Of a stretch of DNA of 64,000 nt, positions 1 through 38,037 are shown piece by piece. The DNA comes from Phycisphaerae bacterium (GTDB lineage: Bacteria > Planctomycetota > Phycisphaerae > Phycisphaerales > UBA1924). Under the pieces are notes generated by a model that had not been told where the DNA came from, made no database searches, and worked only from the letters and a program-made list of their open reading frames with translations. Within the stretch, counting starts at the first letter, position 1. Every line of letters begins with the position of its first letter. The stretch is taken from positions 1-64,000 of the forward strand of contig JAUILU010000004.1 of assembly GCA_030432905.1 (NCBI GenBank). The letters run 5' to 3'. A program made the translations under genes and the position numbers.

Positions 1-2413
<2,413 letters not shown>

Positions 2414-2788: not shown

Positions 2789-4909
2789 TCAGCCCCCGCC
2801 GGTGCTCCCCCCGCCGTCGCGCGAGCGGTTCTGGCGGTTCCGCTCGGCCTCGATTCGGCCCCGGCCGTCACCCCGCCCATCGACCCTTCCGTCGATAAAC
2901 TCGCGGTTTTCGCCGGTAACACGGCTCTGAGTCTGGCCCGGAATCCGGGGGAGCTGCTCCTCACCGATTTCTGCGGACGCCTTGATGATCGAATACAGCG
3001 GCAGGCTCTGGTCCACCCTATGGGACCGGCTCGAGATCTGGCCGTCGGGGCCACGCACGAGCGCCTCGAAGACTGCCTGGGCCTGCCCGCCGATGCCGGC
3101 GGTCACCATCGGAGATTGGACCACATCGAGCAGCCACGAGTCGGCCTCGATCACGAGCTCGGTAGGCAGCAGCAATTCTTCGACGCCCTCGGCCTGCTCG
3201 ACCTCGTTTTCCGATCCCTCCTCGGTTGGACGCCACGCCTGCTCGTCTGCGGTGCGTTCGACGTCCCAACGCTGGAGGCCTTCGGGGAGCGTGATCTCGG
3301 AGACGAAGCGGTCGCCGGGCTGGAGTCCGACCTCGCTCTTGCGCCAGTAGCCGTAGTAGAACCGGTACAGCTCAGCGGTCGCCGAGGCGGTGCCGAGCGC
3401 ACCGGTGTCCGGGCTGGCGCCTGAGATGAAGTAGTACTCGTCCCAGCTGACGCTGACGGGCGAGCCCCACTCGGTCCACTCCGATCGGGTCAGCTTCGCG
3501 TCGGCGAGTTCGTGCAGGCTCTCGTCGAGCGAGCTCTTCCGGCCGAACATCGGGTTCACGAACACAAGTCGCACGCGATAGCGGTACGTAGTGCCCGGTT
3601 CGACGTCGAAGTCGTGCGTCCAGAAGTGGACCTTGTCGGCCTCGAGAAGATCTCCATCGTGCATGTACTTCTCGCGATCGAAGGCTTCTGCGGAGTCGAA
3701 GCTGTCGGGCTGCTGCCAGCCGAGTCCCTCGAGTTCCGCGACCACGCCTTCGCGTTGCGTGTTGAGCTGCTCGATCTGACGCTCGATGTTGCGTGTGCGG
3801 ACATCGCTCTCGCCGCTGTCTTGGTTGCGATCGTTTCGATCCTGTGGCTGCTGTCGGCCGTCACCGCGACCGTCGCCCCTGCCATCACCCCGGCCGTCGC
3901 CGCGGTTCTCGTTGCGGGTCGTAGTGTTGACCGGCCCCGAAAGCGCTCTGTTCTTCTGCTCGATGTTCTTGTCGATACTTGCGAGTCTGCGCTCGAGAAG
4001 GCGGATCTGTCCCTGGATCTCGCCGATGTCCTCTGGGTCCGGGACTTCTGCCGGCGGGACCCAAGGCTCGCCCTCAAGCAGGGGCACAAACTCTGGCCGA
4101 AGGATCGGCTGCTCCATGTTGGCGGCTTGGATGCCGACCTGCTGGAGCTGTTTGTAGTTGGTCGCGGTCTCGTCGAGATCATCGAGGACGCTCGTGATGC
4201 CCGGCATGCGCGTGACGGGTTCTGCGGGCCCCCACTGGCCGTCGATGTCGCGCTTCTGACGCTCGACCTCGACCTCGAGCACGCCTGTGCCTTGATTCCA
4301 CCAGCTGCCCGGGAGAGCGGAGATGACGCCGCCGGGGCCGTCGGGATCGTCCATGTAGGCCTGATGCAGTTCTTTGCCGTCGAAGTGGGATTGAACCGAA
4401 ACCCAAGGCGTGTCGAAGGGCTGTTCTGAGGGCAGGAACTCGGCGAGGCCTTCGATTTCGTTGACCGCGTATGGGTCAAGCGTCGCGCGGTAGCTGGCGG
4501 CTCTTGGCGCAGCAGGAACCGGCGGCACGAACGGCGCGTACTCGCCCGCGGCAAGGTGAGCTTCGCCGATGTTCACATCGATCGAGAGCGGCTTGCCGAG
4601 CGAGAGGAAGCGATCGGTCTTGACCACACCACCCGAGATCGCGTCCTCGAACACATCGCCCAGATTCTGCGTCTCAACGTCCGTCGGCAGAGTCGGGTTT
4701 GTGTTGTCGAGATCCGCCTTCAGAAGCTCGGCGGCGCGCTCAGCGGGCTCGAACGCATCGGCGAGCGAGACGTCCTTGCCGCCTACCTCGACTGTGTTCG
4801 ACTGCAGCACGAACTGAAAGGTCAGGACCGCAAGAAACGCGAGAAGCATGACCGCGACGATCAGTTTCTCGAAGTTGGCTTCGATCCAAGAGATTCCTTT
4901 GACACCCAT
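2789..4909 (-). CDS. membrane-anchored periplasmic protein with RGDG repeats, third gene of the PilMN-fusion operon
   Basis: A 706-aa protein of unknown function. One N-terminal membrane helix (about residues 16-36) should anchor it with a large periplasmic part. A coiled-coil-like stretch rich in Arg, Glu and Gln surrounds a low-complexity block of four RGDG repeats near residues 336-352. It is followed by a fibronectin-like beta region (motif PGTTYRYRVRLVFVNP). A second run of DGR repeats and a Gly/Ser/Arg-rich tail end the protein. It lies 35 bp downstream of the PilO-like gene, probably in one transcript with pilMN. Position suggests a role like PilP or a structural partner of the pilus platform, but no family was recognised. 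Confidence 0.85.
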   Translation of the reverse strand: MGVKGISWIEANFEKLIVAVMLLAFLAVLTFQFVLQSNTVEVGGKDVSLADAFEPAERAAELLKADLDNTNPTLPTDVETQNLGDVFEDAISGGVVKTDRFLSLGKPLSIDVNIGEAHLAAGEYAPFVPPVPAAPRAASYRATLDPYAVNEIEGLAEFLPSEQPFDTPWVSVQSHFDGKELHQAYMDDPDGPGGVISALPGSWWNQGTGVLEVEVERQKRDIDGQWGPAEPVTRMPGITSVLDDLDETATNYKQLQQVGIQAANMEQPILRPEFVPLLEGEPWVPPAEVPDPEDIGEIQGQIRLLERRLASIDKNIEQKNRALSGPVNTTTRNENRGDGRGDGRGDGRGDGRQQPQDRNDRNQDSGESDVRTRNIERQIEQLNTQREGVVAELEGLGWQQPDSFDSAEAFDREKYMHDGDLLEADKVHFWTHDFDVEPGTTYRYRVRLVFVNPMFGRKSSLDESLHELADAKLTRSEWTEWGSPVSVSWDEYYFISGASPDTGALGTASATAELYRFYYGYWRKSEVGLQPGDRFVSEITLPEGLQRWDVERTADEQAWRPTEEGSENEVEQAEGVEELLLPTELVIEADSWLLDVVQSPMVTAGIGGQAQAVFEALVRGPDGQISSRSHRVDQSLPLYSIIKASAEIGEEQLPRIPGQTQSRVTGENREFIDGRVDGRGDGRGRIEAERNRQNRSRDGGGSTGGG
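3854..3904 (-). repeat. four 12-nt repeats encoding RGDG
   Basis: In-frame tandem 12-nt units inside the 706-aa gene, each coding Arg-Gly-Asp-Gly, with synonymous differences between copies. A shorter related run is at about 2858-2897 near the 3' end of the same gene. Confidence 0.85.
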
Positions 4910-4944
4910 TGGTCAATCCTCTTTATCTATCGTGTGTCGGCTGC

Positions 4945-6321
4945 TTAGGCCGGGCTGTCGATTGGTTGATCCGGCTCGATGCCGAGTTGGTCACGAACAT
5001 CCGCGGGCATGAACTGTTTCGTCCAGCTTCGCAGCCAGAGCGTTTCGATTTCCAGCTCGACCCGGACCGTGAAGTCTGAGCCGGCGTAGAAGCCGTTCTC
5101 GATTTGCTGCCACTGATCGACGGAGTAGATATCCGCGTCGAGCACGGTCATGAAGTTGTACGACGAGATCGAATTGATCAGCGCCGGGAGCTTCTCGTAC
5201 GAAGCGATCAGTGAAACTTTCACAGTGCGAACATCGTACAGATCGCTCGGCTCGTCGCCGCGACCAGTAAACGTACCCGCGGCAACGAAACCTGCGGCCT
5301 GGGCACCGGGCAGACCCCGGCCTTCTCTGGCGTCCCGCTCACGCCTGGCTTGACGCCTGATGTCGTCACCAGACAGCGGCATCTCGTATTGATCGTTCGC
5401 GCTAGTCTGGGTTGCCGAAGCGGTCACGAGAGGTTCGAATGTGATCGACTCAACCCGCTTGACGACGCCGTCGAGAACATTGCCGCCGACACCTTGGGTA
5501 TCAAACTCGTCGTTAGCCGCGGCGAGCGCCGTGAGGATGTCATCGATCAGCCAGTAGTCAGCCTGCCAGCTGAAGCATGCTGTCATCGAAGGATCGACGG
5601 GCGAAACCGTACGAGGGACCGACTGGGGCAAGATCGACTCGTCCGCGTAGAACGACGTGTCGCGTGCGTGAGTCTCGTACGCGCCGAGCCTTTGCTCGAC
5701 GAGTTGCTGCTTGATCTGATCGCGGGTCGCCTCGTCCATCTCGCTTTCGGGCGTACCCGGAGCCAGCTGACTCATGAGCGACGCCTTGCGTGCCGCGAGC
5801 TGCTCGCGGAGAAGCTCGCTATCGACCGGTGTCCGGATGCGGAGCCGATCGAAGAGCTTGTCGTACGCCGACTCAAAGTCGTCGCCGCCGGTCGCGACAA
5901 CCATTTGTGCGAACTGTGGTCTAAGAATCTGGCCGCTTGGCCCGCTACTCGGCTCCGGGAACAGACCATCGAGTAGCACGCCGCGGTTCTTGGAGTTGAA
6001 CTCGACCGCGCGATCTTTGACACGCGCGACAATGGATTCTCGCTTCTCGCGCTCGGCCTTGAAGAACTCGGTCGTCACCGCGTTGGGCGGCGTGTTGATC
6101 TCGATCGGCTCTTCGGTCTGCGAGAGAGGCGGCAGCGAGTAAGTTACTTTCGCGGACGTGACATCGCGGAGCGCTTTCTGCGCCTCACTCTGCCGCTCGT
6201 CGCGGAGTTCCTTGTTCATGCCGCTCGAGAAGTACCACGCGACGGGCAACGGCACAACAGTCAGGATCGCCAGAAGAACGATCACTATGTTCGATTTCAA
6301 CCAGGACAGCAAGCCGCTCAT
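4945..6321 (-). CDS. PilO-like membrane-anchored pilus assembly protein
   Basis: A 458-aa protein with one N-terminal transmembrane helix (residues 10-32) and a periplasmic region. The region starts with a helical, charged segment and ends in an alpha/beta domain containing the V-K-V-S-L-I and V-R-V-E-L-E-I strands expected of a PilO-type ferredoxin-like fold. The start codon overlaps the stop of the PilM-PilN fusion gene by 4 nt, so the two are translationally coupled. The architecture also recalls Amuc_1100-type pilus-like proteins, which likewise sit next to a PilM gene. I infer a PilO role from position and topology. Sequence identity to classical PilO is not obvious, so this call is moderate. 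Confidence 0.65.
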   Translation of the reverse strand: MSGLLSWLKSNIVIVLLAILTVVPLPVAWYFSSGMNKELRDERQSEAQKALRDVTSAKVTYSLPPLSQTEEPIEINTPPNAVTTEFFKAEREKRESIVARVKDRAVEFNSKNRGVLLDGLFPEPSSGPSGQILRPQFAQMVVATGGDDFESAYDKLFDRLRIRTPVDSELLREQLAARKASLMSQLAPGTPESEMDEATRDQIKQQLVEQRLGAYETHARDTSFYADESILPQSVPRTVSPVDPSMTACFSWQADYWLIDDILTALAAANDEFDTQGVGGNVLDGVVKRVESITFEPLVTASATQTSANDQYEMPLSGDDIRRQARRERDAREGRGLPGAQAAGFVAAGTFTGRGDEPSDLYDVRTVKVSLIASYEKLPALINSISSYNFMTVLDADIYSVDQWQQIENGFYAGSDFTVRVELEIETLWLRSWTKQFMPADVRDQLGIEPDQPIDSPA

Positions 6322-8378
6322 TCCGTGCCTCCCTCTTCAGCATTTTCCTGAGCACCTTCGCGCTCTTCCGGCGGCACGATTGCCAGTGTCCACTCGATCG
6401 TAAACCGCGATGTTTCCTGGCCGGGCTCGTCGTTCTCAGGAATCGGAAGCGGAGCGAGATCGTCGATGTCACCCGTGATCACGGGCTGGCCCGCGTTTGA
6501 GCGAGTCCGCTGCGAACCGAGCGTCGCTCCGCCGCCGCCACTCGCCTCTGCACGACGGCGAGCCTCGATGGCGCCGCGGTCGAACTCGTCGTACGTCTCC
6601 TCGAAGCCGATCTCACGCGAGACATCCCGCGAGCGGTTCTCACGATCCGATCCGCCGCGTGTGACCGCGCCAAGCGAGCGGTAGTTCAACTCGTCAGTCT
6701 GTAGAATGACGTAGGGCACGCCCTCGCGTTCCACATTGGCCTGGAGCCATGGGAGCACGGTCGAGAACAGGAACCGCTGCGCGTTGCGCTGGCTTGTCTG
6801 GACGTCAAGAACGACCTTGATTTTGGCCTTGTCTGGATATTGCTCTTGGGAGACAACCGGGGCGACCGACCGACGACCGCCGCCAATGTCTCCACCGCCC
6901 GCGCCGCCGGCCTTGCTGTAGGCCATGGTGTAGCTGAGCACCTCGAACGCGTTGTCCGGCCCGCCGCCGTTGGTGGCTTGCCAGTCGGCGACCTGTGCGT
7001 CCGACCATGACATCAGCTGGCCAAGGTCGGCCACCACGTATGACATCAGCTCCCGGCCGTTTGGAAGATCGAGAAGCTGCTGCGCCTCGGCGTCGGTTGA
7101 CGACTCGCCCGTTACGCCGGCTTCGCTCGCCTCGTTGCGGAGGCTGTTGGCCTGGTTCACGACGTTGCGAATCGAGGGTGGTGCGCCGTTGTTCGACACC
7201 GCGTTGTTGTTCATCATCCAGTTAATGAACATCGCGGCGCTCGCGGCGATCGACAGACCCGCGGCCATGCCGAACCACTTGGTCTTGCGGCCCCACATCC
7301 CGTCACGCATGATCGCGACGGGCATGAGATTGGCGTCGATCGTCGGCATGCCGAGGCCCTGCAGCGCAAGGCCGTAGGCGACGCTCATCTCAAGCGTGAC
7401 AGCGCCGAACTCGCCGGCGCGTGGGCCGTCGAGCGAGAGACGCTTGAACTCGTCCATCCGGTAGACGTCGAGCTGGAGCTGCTGCTTCAGGAAGCGGCGC
7501 AGACCCGGCAGCTTGAACGTCGAGCCCACGCCGATGATGCGCTTCAGGTCGGCTTCGGGGTGCAGGCTGCTGTGGTAGCCGAGCGAACGCTGCGTTTCCT
7601 GCGCGAGATCCGCGAACACGCCCTTCATCGCCTGGAAGACGTGGCGCGAGTGCTTCGAGCGTTCGGCTTCACGCTTGAGCCGCTCGGCCTTGGCGTAGCT
7701 TAGTTTGAACTTGTCGACGAGCGCCTCGGTGAAGTGGTGGCCGCCGATCGGGAAGGTCCGCATCCAGACCCGGCCCGCGTCCGCGACGATCAGGTCGGTC
7801 GACGTGGTGCCGACGTCCATGATGACGGTTCCCGGCGTTTTCTCGGTGAACTGCAGGTCGTACGCCATCGCGTTGTACGCCGAGACCGGCGCGACGTTGA
7901 CCGCGTCGGGCGAAAGACCAACATCGCGGAGCAGCGTGAGCTCGCGCTCGATGCGGTCCTTGGTGATCGCGAAGATGCCGACCTCGATGTCGGGCGAGTC
8001 CGGGCTCATGAATGTCTGGTAGTCCCACTCGACTTCTTCGAGATCGAACGGGATCTGCTGGACCGCCTCGAACTTGACGATGTCGGGAACCTTCTTGGGT
8101 TCAACCGGGGGCAGCTTGGCAAAGCGTGCGAACGCCTGGTGCCCGGGAACACTGACCGCGATCGGCGTGTTCTCAAGGTCGTACTGGCTTGCGAGCTGGC
8201 CGATCGCAACGCGCATCGCGTCGTCGGCGTCGAGGCCCGGCGTGGACAGAACCTTCTTGTGAGGAATGACAGCGAAGTCGATGACCTCAACGCTGCCGTC
8301 GCTCGTGGCACCCAGCTTGAGCGCCTTGATGGCGCTCGCCCCGAGCTCGACTCCCCAGCACATACTCTCGGATGCCAT
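6318..8378 (-). CDS. pilM: PilM fused to a PilN-like membrane segment
   Basis: A 686-aa protein. Residues 7-345 are an actin-like PilM domain with the nucleotide-binding signatures VELGASAIKALKL near the start, DVGTTSTDLIV around 188 and GVGSTFKLPGL around 283. Next comes NLMPV (about 350), resembling the N-L-L-P motif by which PilN docks to PilM, then a transmembrane helix (367-387) and a periplasmic tail of about 300 residues. The fusion would tether the normally cytosolic PilM ring directly to the inner membrane. The start at 8378 is chosen because AAGGA lies 8-9 nt upstream and the PilM homology starts there; a longer frame to 8474 is not supported. First gene of a three-gene operon. Confidence 0.85.
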   Translation of the reverse strand: MASESMCWGVELGASAIKALKLGATSDGSVEVIDFAVIPHKKVLSTPGLDADDAMRVAIGQLASQYDLENTPIAVSVPGHQAFARFAKLPPVEPKKVPDIVKFEAVQQIPFDLEEVEWDYQTFMSPDSPDIEVGIFAITKDRIERELTLLRDVGLSPDAVNVAPVSAYNAMAYDLQFTEKTPGTVIMDVGTTSTDLIVADAGRVWMRTFPIGGHHFTEALVDKFKLSYAKAERLKREAERSKHSRHVFQAMKGVFADLAQETQRSLGYHSSLHPEADLKRIIGVGSTFKLPGLRRFLKQQLQLDVYRMDEFKRLSLDGPRAGEFGAVTLEMSVAYGLALQGLGMPTIDANLMPVAIMRDGMWGRKTKWFGMAAGLSIAASAAMFINWMMNNNAVSNNGAPPSIRNVVNQANSLRNEASEAGVTGESSTDAEAQQLLDLPNGRELMSYVVADLGQLMSWSDAQVADWQATNGGGPDNAFEVLSYTMAYSKAGGAGGGDIGGGRRSVAPVVSQEQYPDKAKIKVVLDVQTSQRNAQRFLFSTVLPWLQANVEREGVPYVILQTDELNYRSLGAVTRGGSDRENRSRDVSREIGFEETYDEFDRGAIEARRRAEASGGGGATLGSQRTRSNAGQPVITGDIDDLAPLPIPENDEPGQETSRFTIEWTLAIVPPEEREGAQENAEEGGTE

Positions 8379-31678: not shown

Positions 31679-34147
31679 TTAGTGCTCTGCGGTCACGCGC
31701 AGGACTTCGGCGACGGTTGTCACGCCCTCGGCGACTTTGTTCATGCCGTCCTGGCGGAGGCTGGCCATGCCGCGTTCGAGGCAGAGCTGGCGGAACTCGG
31801 CGACGTTCGGGTTCCGCGCGATGATGTCGCGCATCTGGTCGTCGATTGAGAGCAGCTCGTAGATACCGACTCGGCCCGAGTAGCCGATCTGGCGGCATTT
31901 GTCGCAGCCGACGGGCTGGTAGATCTGCTGACCAATAATGCCCGACAGCTCAAGGAACTCGACCTGCTCCGGCGGAGGGTCGCGGAGATCCTTGCAGTGC
32001 ACGCAGAGCTTGCGGACAAGACGCTGCGCGAGCACGGCGTTGACCGCGGCACCGACGAGGAACGGCTCAAGACCGATGTTCACAAGACGCGTCAGCGAGC
32101 TGGGCGCGTCGTTCGTGTGCAACGTCGAGAGCACCAAGTGACCGGTCAGCGCGGCCTGGATCGCAATATGCGCGGTTTCTTGGTCGCGGATCTCACCGAC
32201 CATGATGACGTCGGGGTCCTGACGCAAGAGAGCGCGGAGCACCTTCGAGAAGGTCATGCCGATCTTCTCGTGCGTCTGGGTCTGCGTGATGCCGTCGAGG
32301 TGGTATTCGATCGGGTCTTCACAGGTCGAGATGTTCAGCTTGTTCTTGTCGAGCTGACGGATCGACGAGTAGAGCGTTGTGGTTTTACCTGAACCGGTCG
32401 GGCCTGTGACGAGCACGATGCCGTGCGCCTGCTTGACCTGGTTCTTCCAGATTTCGAGCGTGGATTCCTCGAAACCGAGGTCTTCGAGTTTCACGTTGAT
32501 CGACTTGGTATCGAGGATACGCATCACGATCTTCTCGCCGACGGCGGCGGGGAGTGTCGAAACACGAAGGTCGAGCTTTCGGCCCTGCACGGTGCAGCGG
32601 ATCCGGCCGTCTTGAGGCAGGCGGCGCTCGGAGATGTCGAGGTTCGCCATGATCTTGATGCGGCTTGTGATCGCGGCGGCCATCGACGCGGGCGGGTTCA
32701 TGCTCTCAAAGAGCACGCCGTCAACACGCAGACGAACCTTGAGCTTCTTCTCGCTGGGTTCGATGTGGATATCACTGGCGCCCTCGCGGACCGCGGACTG
32801 GATGATGTAGTTCACATAGCGGATGACCGGGCTCTCGCCGGCCTGCTGCTCGAGGTCAACCGTCTGCTCGGCGGCCTGCACAACCTCGACGTCCGTCTCT
32901 TCGACGTCCTCAAGGATATCGTTGAGATCGACTTCCTGGTTCTGCTTCTCTTCGGCACCGGCACCCGCGATTTCAAGGGCGGCCTTGATGTCGTGCATCG
33001 TGGTGAGCACGAGCTTGGGAGTCGAGCAGCCGAGCTTTTGCTTGATCTCGTCGAGATCGAACGCGGCATCGGGCCTCGTCGCGGCGATGACCACGCGCGT
33101 GCCCTCGGTGCGGATCGGGAGCACGCTGTGCTCGGCGCAGTAGCCGACGCCGAGGCGCTGGAGGAGTTTGCCATCGAAGCCACCGTCGAAACCGGCGTCG
33201 AGGTTGATCCGCTCGAAGGCGAGGCCCTGGTAGTCGGCGCAGGCGGCCTGCACAACCGTTTCATCCACGCCCTGTTCGATCAGGATCTCCGCGAGCGTCT
33301 TGCCCGGGGTCTGCGCCATGACGTTCTCGGCGGCGAGGATCTGTTCCTTGCTCGCGGCGCCGTGCTCGGCGAGAACATCACCGAAGCTCTTGTTGACGTG
33401 GCCGAGCGTTTTGTCGTCGGGGACGAACAGATCGCTCAAGCCGTTGTTGCTCGCGTATCCCGTGCCGACGTTGATGACGCCGTCACCGCCGCGGCTTTGC
33501 TCGGCTTTGGGTTCTTCCGCAGGCGTGAGATCGGTCAGTGCCTGAGACTCAGCGGGCGCTGGCTCGCTTTGAACAGGCTCGGCTTGTTCTGGTTCAGCAG
33601 AATCCGGACCGGCGTTCTCCGGCTCAAAAGACTCAGCCTCTGCCGGCGTGAGATCCTGGCTCGAATCGCTGGTCAGCGGCCTTGCAACGTTGACCTCTTC
33701 AAAGCCCTGCTTGCCGATCTTGAACACGGGTGCGTGCAGATCGCCCTCGTCCTCGGCTTGCGGCGCATGTGCGGGCTCTGGGTCAGACTGGATCTCGAAC
33801 CCAGAGATCGGCTCATCGTCCTCGGTGAACGCCGCATCCGCCTCGAAGCTTTCGCCTTCTTCGTCGCGGAAGGTTTCCGAACTCAGAATGTCCTCACTCT
33901 CGTCTGATCCGGTTTCTACCTCATCGACGGGTGACTCTGCAGGCTCTTGCTCGTAGGTGTCGTCGGGCTCGATCGTCTGGAACCCAACCGGGTCTTGCGC
34001 CGGCTTGGAGTTTACAGGGCCATGATCCGCGGGCTCTGCGCGGCCAGGGTCTACGGGCGGCGCGTCGCTCTCGTCCGGTTTGGACGAAGTGCTCTGCTCG
34101 AGCCGGTTGATGCGGGCGAGGATGTCGTCGATGCTGCCGTGGGACAC
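31679..34147 (-). CDS. pilB: type IV pilus/type II secretion assembly ATPase PilB/GspE
   Basis: An 822-aa extension ATPase. The GTG at 34147 has GGAG 7 nt upstream. Residues 15 to about 230 are an acidic, Glu/Pro/Ala-rich disordered stretch unusual for PilB. A GspE N-terminal domain (from KSFGDVLAEHG, about 255) and the ATPase core follow. In the core are Walker A GPTGSGKTTT near 580, Walker B VGEIRD near 650, the His box HLVLSTLHTNDAPSS, and a tetracysteine zinc motif (CVHC near 717, CDKC near 752). Last gene of the pil operon. Confidence 0.93.
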   Translation of the reverse strand: MSHGSIDDILARINRLEQSTSSKPDESDAPPVDPGRAEPADHGPVNSKPAQDPVGFQTIEPDDTYEQEPAESPVDEVETGSDESEDILSSETFRDEEGESFEADAAFTEDDEPISGFEIQSDPEPAHAPQAEDEGDLHAPVFKIGKQGFEEVNVARPLTSDSSQDLTPAEAESFEPENAGPDSAEPEQAEPVQSEPAPAESQALTDLTPAEEPKAEQSRGGDGVINVGTGYASNNGLSDLFVPDDKTLGHVNKSFGDVLAEHGAASKEQILAAENVMAQTPGKTLAEILIEQGVDETVVQAACADYQGLAFERINLDAGFDGGFDGKLLQRLGVGYCAEHSVLPIRTEGTRVVIAATRPDAAFDLDEIKQKLGCSTPKLVLTTMHDIKAALEIAGAGAEEKQNQEVDLNDILEDVEETDVEVVQAAEQTVDLEQQAGESPVIRYVNYIIQSAVREGASDIHIEPSEKKLKVRLRVDGVLFESMNPPASMAAAITSRIKIMANLDISERRLPQDGRIRCTVQGRKLDLRVSTLPAAVGEKIVMRILDTKSINVKLEDLGFEESTLEIWKNQVKQAHGIVLVTGPTGSGKTTTLYSSIRQLDKNKLNISTCEDPIEYHLDGITQTQTHEKIGMTFSKVLRALLRQDPDVIMVGEIRDQETAHIAIQAALTGHLVLSTLHTNDAPSSLTRLVNIGLEPFLVGAAVNAVLAQRLVRKLCVHCKDLRDPPPEQVEFLELSGIIGQQIYQPVGCDKCRQIGYSGRVGIYELLSIDDQMRDIIARNPNVAEFRQLCLERGMASLRQDGMNKVAEGVTTVAEVLRVTAEH

Positions 34148-34201
34148 TGATTCACTCCTACCACCCGCGAGACTGCGCCCTGCCAAGAGCCAATGGGACC
34201 A

Positions 34202-34894
34202 TTACTTAGAATCGAGTTCGATGACGTACGTCTTGCCGTCGGCGCCGAGCGTGACCGATCGATCCTCGATCGAGAGCACGAGGAACTCCGACTCGACCAC
34301 ATCGCCGACGCGGTACGTCTTGCCGTCGATGCGAGCGAGCGAGACCCGACCGCGAAGGACCGTGTTGAGCTGGAGACCATCGACGGTGCGCTGCAGCTCA
34401 CGAGCACGGATCTCCTCGGGGGTCGGCCCCTTGGGTTCTTCCTGCTTGGGAGTTGTCATCGCGACGTCTTCGGGCTCATCGCCCTTGACGAGGATCGCCA
34501 TCTCGAACGGGTTCTTCTGTAGATCCTCGACCGGGACCTGGTTCGGGTTGTCCGAGAGTTCCAGGTCGAACAGCAGCTTGCGCTGGTGCTCCGTGTCGGT
34601 CTGGGCGGCCTTCTCGTCGACTTCGTAGTCGATCTTGACCTCATCTCCCGAGGCGAAGCCGACGCCGAGGCCCTGGTCACGCATGAACCAGAGAAGTCCG
34701 GCGCTCACCGCGAGCACGAAGCCAACGATGATGTACTGCTTCGACGGCGAGTGGCTATCGGAGGCCGAGCCGTCGAAACCGCCCGCACCAGAATCAACCT
34801 GGATCTGCTTGAACGTCGGCGAGAGCATCTGGTGCTCGCCCGAGTCCATCGGATCGTCGGCAAAGTTTGTTGGTTCAATGTCTGTAGGCATCAT
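34202..34894 (-). CDS. PilP-like (or GspC-like) single-pass periplasmic protein of the pil operon
   Basis: A 230-aa protein: 50 cytosolic residues, a transmembrane helix (about 53-70), a charged linker and a small C-terminal beta domain (LRGRVSLARIDGKTYRVGDVV, then VLSIEDRSVTLGADGKTYVI). That domain resembles the PilP/GspC homology region, which links the inner-membrane platform to the secretin. The start overlaps the pilO stop by 4 nt. PilP is normally a lipoprotein, whereas this one has a membrane helix as in GspC. The name is by position and fold pattern. Confidence 0.75.
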   Translation of the reverse strand: MMPTDIEPTNFADDPMDSGEHQMLSPTFKQIQVDSGAGGFDGSASDSHSPSKQYIIVGFVLAVSAGLLWFMRDQGLGVGFASGDEVKIDYEVDEKAAQTDTEHQRKLLFDLELSDNPNQVPVEDLQKNPFEMAILVKGDEPEDVAMTTPKQEEPKGPTPEEIRARELQRTVDGLQLNTVLRGRVSLARIDGKTYRVGDVVESEFLVLSIEDRSVTLGADGKTYVIELDSK

Positions 34895-35433
34895 GATGAT
34901 TCGCCCTCGCCTTCGAAGTAGATGCTGAGCGTGAACTCGGCCTCGAGGTGACCGTCACGGTCGCGTGACCTGATGATTTCCATGTCCGGGATGCGCGTGA
35001 TCCGGGGCATCTGCTCGAGCGCCAGCAGGAACTGGTAGAAGCCGTCGAACTCGCCCTTGAGCGTCATGTCGATCGGCTGCTCCCAGTACAGCGAGCCGCG
35101 GATCGGTGTGCCCGAGGTCATGCCGGGCTGTTCGAGACCGGACTCGATCGCCAGACGAGAAACCTCGCGGACGATGGTGTCAATCTCTTTGCCGGTCGGC
35201 AGACGCTCCTCGATCGCAGCGATGCCCTGGCGGATCTCTTCATTGGCACCCTCGAGCGTGTCGTTTCGGCTCGTGGCGACCTGAAGCTTCTCGAGCATGG
35301 CGCGCTTGTGTTCGATCTCGCGCTCGGCCTGCTCGATCTCCTGATTCTGCGGGCGGAACACCAGCCAGTAGCTGGACAGGGGCATCGCTAGCAGGATGCC
35401 CAGAAGGACAAACTCACGAATTCCAAATCGCAT
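34891..35433 (-). CDS. pilO: type IV pilus inner-membrane protein PilO
   Basis: A 180-aa protein with one N-terminal transmembrane helix (about 7-26), a coiled-coil stretch (28-75) and a ferredoxin-like domain. The domain contains IDMTLKGEFDGFYQFLLALEQMPRI, shown here only to about 20 residues as GEFDGFYQFLLALEQMPR, the typical PilO signature. Its ATG overlaps the pilN stop codon (TAATG) and its own stop overlaps the next gene, so the four genes are tightly coupled. Together with PilN it forms the periplasmic alignment complex. Confidence 0.9.
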   Translation of the reverse strand: MRFGIREFVLLGILLAMPLSSYWLVFRPQNQEIEQAEREIEHKRAMLEKLQVATSRNDTLEGANEEIRQGIAAIEERLPTGKEIDTIVREVSRLAIESGLEQPGMTSGTPIRGSLYWEQPIDMTLKGEFDGFYQFLLALEQMPRITRIPDMEIIRSRDRDGHLEAEFTLSIYFEGEGESS

Positions 35434-36815
35434 TACTCGTCCTCCTTGTCTTCGTCACCCTCGTCGGCGTCGCCGGTCGCGGGGTCTTCTGTCTCTTCAT
35501 CCGCGTCGGTCTCGACAACAGGCTCGCTGTCGTCGTCCGAGTCGGTGTCGGCTTCGGGATCAGAGAACCAGAGCTTGACCGGCTTCTCTTCACCCTCGGC
35601 TGCGGGAGTTTCCTCTTGCGCTCCGGTGTCGGCCTGATCAACCGCCTCTTCGACAGCCTCCTCGACGACTTCCTCGGCCTCGAACTCGGGCTCCTCGGAA
35701 ACCGGGTTCTCAAGAAGTTCCTGGGCGGCCTTCTCCGAGCGGACACGCTCGGCGGTCCGGGCGGCTGAACCCATCAGGTCGAACAGACCCGAGGGTGATG
35801 ACCACTTGGATTCGCTGCTGCCGAACGTCGGCATCGAGGGCATGCTGGGCACGGTGAAGACAACGTCGCCCTCCTCGGCCTCGAATTCCTCGGCGTCGCC
35901 ACCGAATTCATTGAACTCGAACACGCCTTCCGCGTCGTCCGATTCGAGCGATGAATCGAACTCCTCGGTGCCAGCATCGTTCTCGGTCTCTTCACCTTCC
36001 ACGCTCGGCGGGAGCAGCAGAGGCATCTTGGGAACGAGGCGATCCGGGGAGCGGACGTCCGGCATCTCAACCGGAGCGGGCTTCTCGACCAGGCCGCGGG
36101 CGTCGGCGTCGGTGCGGATGGTCGAGCTCAACTCGAAGCTACGCAGGAGCACGCCGTCGATCTTGGCTTCCTTAATGAACTTCAGCTCGACGTTATCAAG
36201 AAGCTCGCACTGGCGCAGGTTCTCGATGTAGTCGGCGATGTCGTCGTTGCTGAGGCCGACACCGATAATCTTGAGCGACTGGTTGTACTTCGGGATATAG
36301 ATCGAGCTCTCGGCTTCCTCTGCGTCCTTCTTGCCCTTCTTGGACTTGCTCTTGGAGCTGCCCGTGAGCGTGCGGACGCCGCTGGAGCGGCTCGACTTGC
36401 GGGACGCCTTGATCTCCTGGCTATCCAGCGAGAACTGGGTGAGCGTGACGTCCTTTGGCATGCGGCTGACAAGCTCGGCAAACAGCACCGACCTCGGCAC
36501 GCGCTCGACCAGAGCGGCGGTCACCTCGGCCTTGGTCACCATCTCGGCGCGCTGCTTCTCGAGCTCCTTGAGCTCTTCGATCTTCTCCGCCTCGCGGACA
36601 TACATCGCGTTGATCGAGCGCTGCTCGTCACGGACGCCCATCCAGCGGCGGTTGGTCGCGAAGAAGGCTGCAACCACGGCGAGCATCATCACACCGAACA
36701 GTGTGAGACTCAGCATGTTTGCACGGCGTTCGCCCTTGGACTTCACGTAGTCTTCAGGCAGAAAGCTGTCCTGATTCCACGCGTCTAGCGGCTTTGTTAC
36801 ATCGCTCTCGCTCAT
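35433..36815 (-). CDS. pilN: type IV pilus protein PilN with long acidic C-terminal extension
   Basis: A 460-aa protein starting at the ATG preceded by GGGGGAAG. A PilM-binding motif SFLPEDYV is near 18, the transmembrane helix at about 36-57, a coiled coil to about 90 and a PilN ferredoxin-like domain to about 230 with a Lys/Ser-rich insertion. From about 245 to the end the chain is very acidic and low complexity (Glu, Asp, Ser, Pro), roughly doubling the size of a normal PilN. Its topology places this tail in the periplasm. Confidence 0.88.
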   Translation of the reverse strand: MSESDVTKPLDAWNQDSFLPEDYVKSKGERRANMLSLTLFGVMMLAVVAAFFATNRRWMGVRDEQRSINAMYVREAEKIEELKELEKQRAEMVTKAEVTAALVERVPRSVLFAELVSRMPKDVTLTQFSLDSQEIKASRKSSRSSGVRTLTGSSKSKSKKGKKDAEEAESSIYIPKYNQSLKIIGVGLSNDDIADYIENLRQCELLDNVELKFIKEAKIDGVLLRSFELSSTIRTDADARGLVEKPAPVEMPDVRSPDRLVPKMPLLLPPSVEGEETENDAGTEEFDSSLESDDAEGVFEFNEFGGDAEEFEAEEGDVVFTVPSMPSMPTFGSSESKWSSPSGLFDLMGSAARTAERVRSEKAAQELLENPVSEEPEFEAEEVVEEAVEEAVDQADTGAQEETPAAEGEEKPVKLWFSDPEADTDSDDDSEPVVETDADEETEDPATGDADEGDEDKEDE

Positions 36816-36855
36816 GAGCTTCCCCCGGGCGTTTCGCGCCCGCACCTTTCACTTC

Positions 36856-38037
36856 CTACAGATCCGTTGGACACACCGAGAGCCCAAGCGCTGCGGCCCA
36901 GCCGGGCAGCGGTGCGTTGATCTCGACACCTTTAGATGGCTCTTTCCCGCTCTTGCTGATCGCGCCGAGCGGGTCGCCTGTTTGAACCGCGACACGGACC
37001 GTGCTCGCCAGGCGCCGGCACAGTCCGAGATTTGTTGATTCGCCGCCCGTGAATACCGCACGCTCGACCGGTTGGTTCGGGAACAGGTTGCGGTGGTAAC
37101 GGATGCACAGCGCAACCTCGTCCGAGAGAATCTCGAACGCCTCGTCAAGATCCGGCATGACGCTCGGAGTCTTGTGGCTGCTGACTGCTGATTCTGCTTT
37201 CGAGTTGAGCGAGCCGAGCGACATCACCGGGGCACGATTGACACCCGTGAACTCCGCGTCGTTGCGTCGCGCCTCGTGCGCCCGCGCGATGCTGACCTTC
37301 CACTTGCTCGCGAGCGACTTGTCGAGCGCCCGGCCGCCGTAGTCGAACGTGCGGGCGAACATGAGCCTGCCGCCCCGACCGATTGTTGCTTTGGTCGATC
37401 CGAAACCGAGATCGAGGTACAGAGTAGTTGCGTTCTCTGGTGCCGCCCCCACCGCATTGAAGCCGGCGAGCGAGGCGAGCGATTCTGGCTGAACACCCAC
37501 GGGCTCGAGCTTGCTCGCGTGGAGCGAACGCATCAGGACATCAACAGTGGACCGGGCGGTGGCCATGCCGATGACTTCGATCTTGCCTTGGTCCGCGCCG
37601 ACTGGCCCCACCGCGATGTGGCGGAGCACCAGCATGTTCGGATCGCAGCCGAGCTGCGACGCGAGCGTGATCTTGGTTGCCGACTCGATCGAGGCAGGGT
37701 TGCCCTTTGACACCTGTAGGTGCTTGCAGAACGTGAACGAGACCGGGAGCAGGCAGACGGCGCGCTTGCCCTTGAAGCCGGCGCCGCGGATAAGAGCGGG
37801 CAGCTGCTCGGTCTGGTAGCTGAGGCGTGCGGCCGGGTCGTCGAAGAGTTCATCCGGAGTATCGAGCGCCGCGGCTGCGATCAGGCCCGGCTTGTCGGCG
37901 CCGGTCACCTGAAGCACCTTCAGTGCGCTTGTGCCGAAGTCCACCGCGATCGGTCGCGGCTGGCGCGAGAGCGAAGGCGCACTGGATCGCCCACGCTTCT
38001 GTTTCAAGGCTGAAAACGACGCTCTGGGCATCGACAT
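36856..38037 (-). CDS. pilM: type IV pilus assembly protein PilM
   Basis: A 393-aa actin-like ATPase fold protein, first gene of the second pil operon. Motifs: AVDFGTSALKVLQV (about 31), DLGFGSTKATIGRGGRLMFARTFDYGG, quoted in part as DLGFGSTKATIGRGG near 225, and FTGGESTNLGLCRRLA near 345. Unlike the copy at 6318 it ends without a membrane segment, and PilN is a separate gene 40 nt downstream. It forms the cytosolic ring that docks PilN. A hairpin with AGCCCGG/CCGGGGCT at 38062-38082 lies in the leader or ends the upstream mqnB gene. Confidence 0.92.
   Translation of the reverse strand: MSMPRASFSALKQKRGRSSAPSLSRQPRPIAVDFGTSALKVLQVTGADKPGLIAAAALDTPDELFDDPAARLSYQTEQLPALIRGAGFKGKRAVCLLPVSFTFCKHLQVSKGNPASIESATKITLASQLGCDPNMLVLRHIAVGPVGADQGKIEVIGMATARSTVDVLMRSLHASKLEPVGVQPESLASLAGFNAVGAAPENATTLYLDLGFGSTKATIGRGGRLMFARTFDYGGRALDKSLASKWKVSIARAHEARRNDAEFTGVNRAPVMSLGSLNSKAESAVSSHKTPSVMPDLDEAFEILSDEVALCIRYHRNLFPNQPVERAVFTGGESTNLGLCRRLASTVRVAVQTGDPLGAISKSGKEPSKGVEINAPLPGWAAALGLSVCPTDL

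Follow-up and report, generated by a model that had tools for sequence, protein, structure and literature searches.

A planctomycete operon joining PilM to PilN and its likeness to the Akkermansia Amuc_1098–1101 pilus locus

The type IVa pilus of Myxococcus, Pseudomonas and Thermus is made with PilM, PilN, PilO, PilP and PilQ, of which PilM and PilN are products of separate genes, and PilN carries an N-L-L-P motif before its membrane helix. Type II secretion already has PilM-like and PilN-like parts within a single chain, in GspL (PMC3815138, PMC3724824), so a fused architecture alone is not new. Another relative is the Amuc_1098–1101 (MUL2) locus of Akkermansia, which the literature found describes in Verrucomicrobia only; its PilQ/Amuc_1098 is an outer-membrane protein with TPR and secretin parts (PMC4960237), and related MUL genes were reported to be needed for the accumulation of mucin products in internal compartments (PMC12418764, PMC13174399). 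In planctomycetes, pili-like fibres at crateriform structures bind large molecules such as dextran, and macromolecules are taken up; a 2017 study left the characterisation of the machine responsible for uptake to later work (PMC5394234).

The operon described here lies near one end of a 64,000-nucleotide stretch of a Phycisphaerae bacterium genome (hereafter the window) and consists of three genes, whose products probably form the platform, in the inner membrane, of a type-IV-pilus-type machine like that of Amuc_1098–1101. It is best read as a planctomycete variant of that locus because its first protein is related to Amuc_1101, its second has the Amuc_1100 fold and its relatives are linked to an Amuc_1098-like secretin. 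As far as the literature found shows, it is new that a platform of the Amuc_1098–1101 type spans Planctomycetota, that the PilN docking motif is kept at the fusion point and that, in most of the Phycisphaerales examined, the secretin gene lies apart from the platform genes.

Operon layout and the joined PilM-PilN protein

The genes are read from the minus strand toward a 23S rRNA gene on the same strand (window 1–2412). The fusion gene has an aaggaagga ribosome-binding site ahead of its ATG start at 8378, and its stop overlaps the PilO-like gene by 4 bases. The order of fusion, PilO-like protein and large anchored protein, with its coordinates, had been given correctly in the preliminary description. 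The features are as follows.

6318..8378, minus strand: fused PilM-PilN protein, 686 aa, Amuc_1101-like (Pfam/NCBIfam matches; order-wide and phylum-wide conservation)
7356..8363, minus strand: actin-like PilM domain, residues 6–341 (PilM_2 at 9–340; AlphaFold elements 6–341 at high pLDDT)
7320..7331, minus strand: N-L-M-P motif, residues 350–353, counterpart of the cytosolic N-L-L-P docking motif of PilN (homologue conservation; PilN N-terminus alignment)
7215..7277, minus strand: predicted membrane helix, about residues 368–388 (hydropathy; AlphaFold helix 354–396)
7014..7340, minus strand: PilN-like segment, residues about 347–455 (profile A8 against PilN 3jc8_Na residues 3–118, E 1.6e-9)
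4945..6321, minus strand: PilO-like/Amuc_1100-like single-pass protein, 458 aa (AlphaFold model, pLDDT 86; fold matches)
2789..4909, minus strand: large anchored protein, 706 aa, in the position of Amuc_1099 (third in the conserved order; hhalign 96%)
3107..3616, minus strand: conserved C-terminal domain of the large protein, residues about 432–601 (match between profiles A3 and A5)

Stretches that resemble translated rRNA also lie downstream of the large protein in three relatives (L066, L068 and L072), which suggests that the position of the operon beside rRNA is conserved. The gene upstream of the operon looks, by inspection, like one for a MEMO-type protein. As the preliminary description had also observed, the operon (2789–8378) holds no ATPase, prepilin or secretin gene, and a full pil set lies 23 kb off: separate pilM, pilN, pilO and pilP-like genes and one for an MshEN-type ATPase occupy window 31679–38037 on the minus strand, with a gene for an acetate-CoA ligase coming after them. 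The ATPase of this set scores about equally with GspE and PilB, both just under the cut-off.

The first gene is a single open frame, and chains of at least 529 aa are found in the 59 aligned planctomycete homologues. Its PilM domain matches Pfam PilM_2 with 109.7 bits (cut-off 27), the protein scores 136.7 bits against TIGR01175 (cut-off 133), and a PDB search with the single sequence turns up chiefly PilM structures, from Myxococcus, Thermus and Pseudomonas. Behind this domain the chain reads T-I-D-A-N-L-M-P and passes through a basic stretch into a hydrophobic helix; the periplasmic tail continues past the PilN-like segment to the last residue, 686. Among the homologues, P353 is kept in 59 of 59, L351 in 54 and N350 in 40, and a hydrophobic helix lies at most 60 residues after the motif in 56; a chance motif is ruled out by the invariant proline. 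The AlphaFold model gives a confident PilM domain and a pLDDT of about 95 for residues 341–360, leading into helix 354–396, beyond which helices and a few strands are predicted.

The PilN identity of the segment was drawn from profile searches of the PDB. Profiles built from the motif onward found Myxococcus PilN (3jc8_Na), far above the next match, with E 1.4e-8 for 24 proteins and E 1.6e-9 for 39 proteins headed by the window sequence; the alignments start at PilN residue 3–4 and end at 116–118, and thus take in motif, helix and coiled region. Since the stronger match begins at PilN residue 3, the PilN identification is right, and at the level of sequence PilM is indeed fused to a genuine N-terminal part of PilN, with its motif, membrane helix and coiled segment. 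No match was returned by hhalign between the fusion tail and either PilN or PilO of the window itself, each taken as a single sequence, and Pfam PilN is absent among the families listed for the members of tail profile A9. The preliminary description had proposed that PilM runs through an NLMP motif and a membrane helix into a periplasmic tail in one chain, which the domain matches and the conserved motif bear out; its view of the segment after PilM as PilN-like agrees with the Myxococcus profile match.

GspL has the same overall plan, with a PilM-like cytosolic part, one membrane helix and a PilN-like periplasmic part in a single chain. This precedent (PMC3815138) favours a type II secretion-like exporter, in which the fusion would stand for GspL, the PilO-like protein for GspM, and short pseudopili would push proteins out; several prepilin clusters and five secretins in the genome are in keeping with it. 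Such an exporter is nevertheless unlikely, because the PilM domain passes the pilM cut-off whereas the T2SS L model gives 13.4 bits, under its cut-off of 25.5, a score by which identity with GspL was rejected. Unlike GspL, the window protein scores as PilM, retains N-L-x-P where the two parts join and is paired with a secretin of pilus type; most simply, it would be a separate fusion. The type IVa pilus has the same parts and the N-L-L-P before the PilN helix, but there PilM and PilN remain separate and PilO is much smaller.

The Amuc_1101 family (NF045709) matches the fusion with 192 bits (E 2.1e-56), over fusion residues 40–466 and profile positions 37–471 of 608. Since the model covers the region after PilM, the joining of PilM to PilN is probably common to this family, as judged from the alignment. 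The comparison with Akkermansia draws on family models, solved structures and papers, and all Amuc family matches fall under the curated equivalog cut-offs (192 against 650, 17 against 180 and 80 against 750 bits); by score, the window proteins are homologues outside the curated equivalogs.

Partner proteins and a secretin encoded elsewhere

An Amuc_1100-type protein adjoining the fusion is present by fold, and sequence models match it weakly. The best fold match of the PilO-like model is Amuc_1100 (6lad; Z 11.9 over 163 residues, 3.2 Å), with Z 10.8 for 6kny and 6laf and Z 6.5 for PilO 2rjz, and the first 14 Foldseek matches are all PilO or Amuc_1100. Here fold comparison alone is informative, as the PilO-like sequence and profiles A2, A3 and A7 gave no meaningful match against the PDB. 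The model also resembles the periplasmic domains of GspL/GspM type (Z about 4–5.6), a further point for an exporter, but its fold is nearer to Amuc_1100 than to GspM.

The large protein consists of an N-terminal membrane helix, a coiled linker and a C-terminal domain, the last being its conserved part; neither this protein nor its counterparts in other loci match any family model, and no model ties it to Amuc_1099. Its place in the series is given by profile comparison (hhalign), in which the second gene of the window matches the second gene of other planctomycete loci at 97.9% and the third matches the third at 96.1%, against 4.7% and 10.8% for controls with second and third genes swapped. 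The earlier reading of the second gene as PilO-like is supported by fold.

With the MUL2 locus of Verrucomicrobiales the planctomycete genes share a PilM-like protein, whose kinship extends from the PilM domain through the motif and helix region behind it, a PilO fold of Amuc_1100 type and one more anchored gene; most of the planctomycete loci examined also match it in having a secretin and in gene order. The differences are that the order to which the window belongs encodes the secretin elsewhere, that the second and third proteins of the window have a greater length (458 and 706 aa, with 326 positions in the Amuc_1100 model), that the sequences score far below the equivalog cut-offs and that, by inspection, no Amuc_1102-like pilin gene is seen beside the operon.

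Five secretins are encoded in the 3.4 Mb genome. One of them, of 1181 aa (G000:C1:1207706-1211248), has Amuc_1098 as its best NCBIfam model, closer than GspD, which again speaks against an exporter; a secretin of this type is kept in 40 of 41 genomes of the order. In two loci from another family of the order, L069 and L070, the operon is preceded on its own strand, at a distance of a few kb, by a homologue of this secretin, and STAS-type genes and argS lie between the two. Outside the order, a secretin of the same kind follows the fusion gene on the same strand in 28 of 40 loci, from 21 families, across a gap of about 1.1–3.3 kb that holds one or two single-pass proteins. Locus L193 gives the full series: a fusion (Amuc_1101 model, E 4.5e-74), a protein of 332 aa (Amuc_1100 model, weak, E 0.003), a protein of 354 aa and a secretin (Amuc_1098 model, E 1.5e-26; PilQ model, 5.4e-29).

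The window's own locus is without an Amuc_1098-type secretin. Since a secretin stands beside the fusion in those 28 loci, the secretin-less operon is best read as a case in which the secretin gene has become separated from the platform genes, and the outer-membrane channel of the platform is most likely the 1181-aa secretin. The preliminary description had taken the operon for a platform without secretin and perhaps not a pilus at all; this view is not supported, as the secretin is found elsewhere in the genome, adjoins the platform genes in most other planctomycete loci examined and counts the Akkermansia Amuc_1098 type IV pilus secretin family among its relatives.

Directly behind the Amuc_1098-like secretin, STAS-type (anti-anti-sigma-like) genes are found at L069:14843-16054, L070:5703-6911 and L051:19338-19766, in L069 together with an RsbW-like gene, and they stay behind the secretin also where it has moved from the platform operon. 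Two Amuc_1098-like secretin genes stand in tandem behind the fusion operon in five loci (L213, L215, L221, L224 and L225).

Conservation and selection

Every one of the 41 genomes sampled within the genus, family and order carries the fusion, and the order of fusion, PilO-like and large protein is the same in the 20 relatives' loci examined. Against two relatives of the same genus, dN/dS was 0.19–0.22 for the fusion and the PilO-like protein and 0.23–0.27 for the large protein. The presence of two PilM homologues in the same window could mean that the operon merely duplicates the standard pilMNOP set 23 kb away, as a decayed or redundant copy. However, the fusion is single-copy in almost every relative and its homology is to a different family; a decayed second copy, which the preliminary description had named as an outcome that would undo its reading, is refuted by the conservation and the dN/dS values and retains virtually no probability.

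Over the phylum, fusion matches were obtained in 112 of 119 sampled genomes. In at least 75 of the 119 the match extends past the PilM domain in one open frame of more than 500 aa (counted by hand from the table, the remaining matches being shorter PilM-type matches, pieces and contig ends). A scan for relatives of the fusion kept 80 loci, nearly all from Phycisphaerales or Planctomycetota. One genome of the same family (G074), with a completeness score of 100%, has neither the fusion nor the large protein, both of which occur in two members of its genus, yet retains the secretin and PilT; either loss or an assembly gap beside the rRNA operon would account for this.

The proposed machine and its possible role

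In the proposed platform, one chain begins with PilM in the cytosol and goes on with the docking motif, membrane helix and periplasmic tail of PilN. By analogy with type IV pili, PilM may couple to the assembly ATPase in the cytosol and the PilN part may pair in the periplasm with its PilO-like/Amuc_1100 partner; the third protein would probably connect with the secretin, the part played by PilP in other pili. The motif may dock in the groove of its own PilM, by which PilM exchange would be barred. As PilM and PilN stand in one chain, PilM could not dissociate, and it is plausible that docking is made permanent by the fusion. PilB, PilC, PilT and prepilins may be supplied by clusters elsewhere, a candidate being that on contig C5 (L052), where PilB-, PilT- and PilC-type genes and several prepilins occur and where the stretch read holds no secretin or PilMNO genes. 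Among 40 phylum loci, one has a T2SSE-type ATPase gene linked within reach.

The operon is without ATPase in almost all relatives examined, and this could indicate, as the preliminary description suggested, a static or diverged, filament-less machine spanning the envelope, for instance a permanent connector of inner and outer membrane such as the crateriform sites, where the two membranes are in fact connected (PMC5394234); permanent PilM docking would suit a static anchor. We consider a static machine very unlikely, as the partner secretin is related to a pilus secretin family, locus L207 has prepilin genes right behind its secretin, PilB-, PilC- and PilT-type genes are present in the genome, and crateriform structures can themselves carry pili-like fibres (PMC5394234).

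Returning to a pilus of the Amuc_1098–1101 kind, Akkermansia and the dextran-binding planctomycete fibres suggest that the fibre may serve in attachment and in the capture of large glycans. A broader proposal, which we put forward tentatively and regard as possible rather than probable, is that the joined PilM-PilN platform found across Planctomycetota, together with the Amuc_1098-like secretin, builds the crateriform fibres and pulls large polysaccharides into the enlarged periplasm, as a glycan-capture pilus common to Planctomycetota and Verrucomicrobiota and homologous to the mucin-uptake locus of Akkermansia. The points counted against the preferred reading are the Amuc scores under the cut-offs, the unlinked ATPase and prepilin genes, the upstream neighbour that looks like a MEMO-type protein, the genome that keeps the secretin but not the operon (G074) and the third gene, which no model ties to Amuc_1099. 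The operon is a concrete candidate for the machine by which planctomycetes bind and take up large molecules, and a relative spread over the phylum names the genes with which it can be tested whether planctomycete and Akkermansia uptake share one machine. The fusion, as a pilus platform that PilM cannot leave, is also useful for asking if PilM exchange matters to pilus dynamics.

With more than ten T2SSE-type ATPase matches beside its five secretins, the genome has several pilus or secretion machines side by side. One secretin domain (L046, G000:C1:230231-230728) is embedded in a 4566-aa open frame, a size out of the ordinary for a secretin, and its neighbours look, by inspection, like a phosphate transporter.
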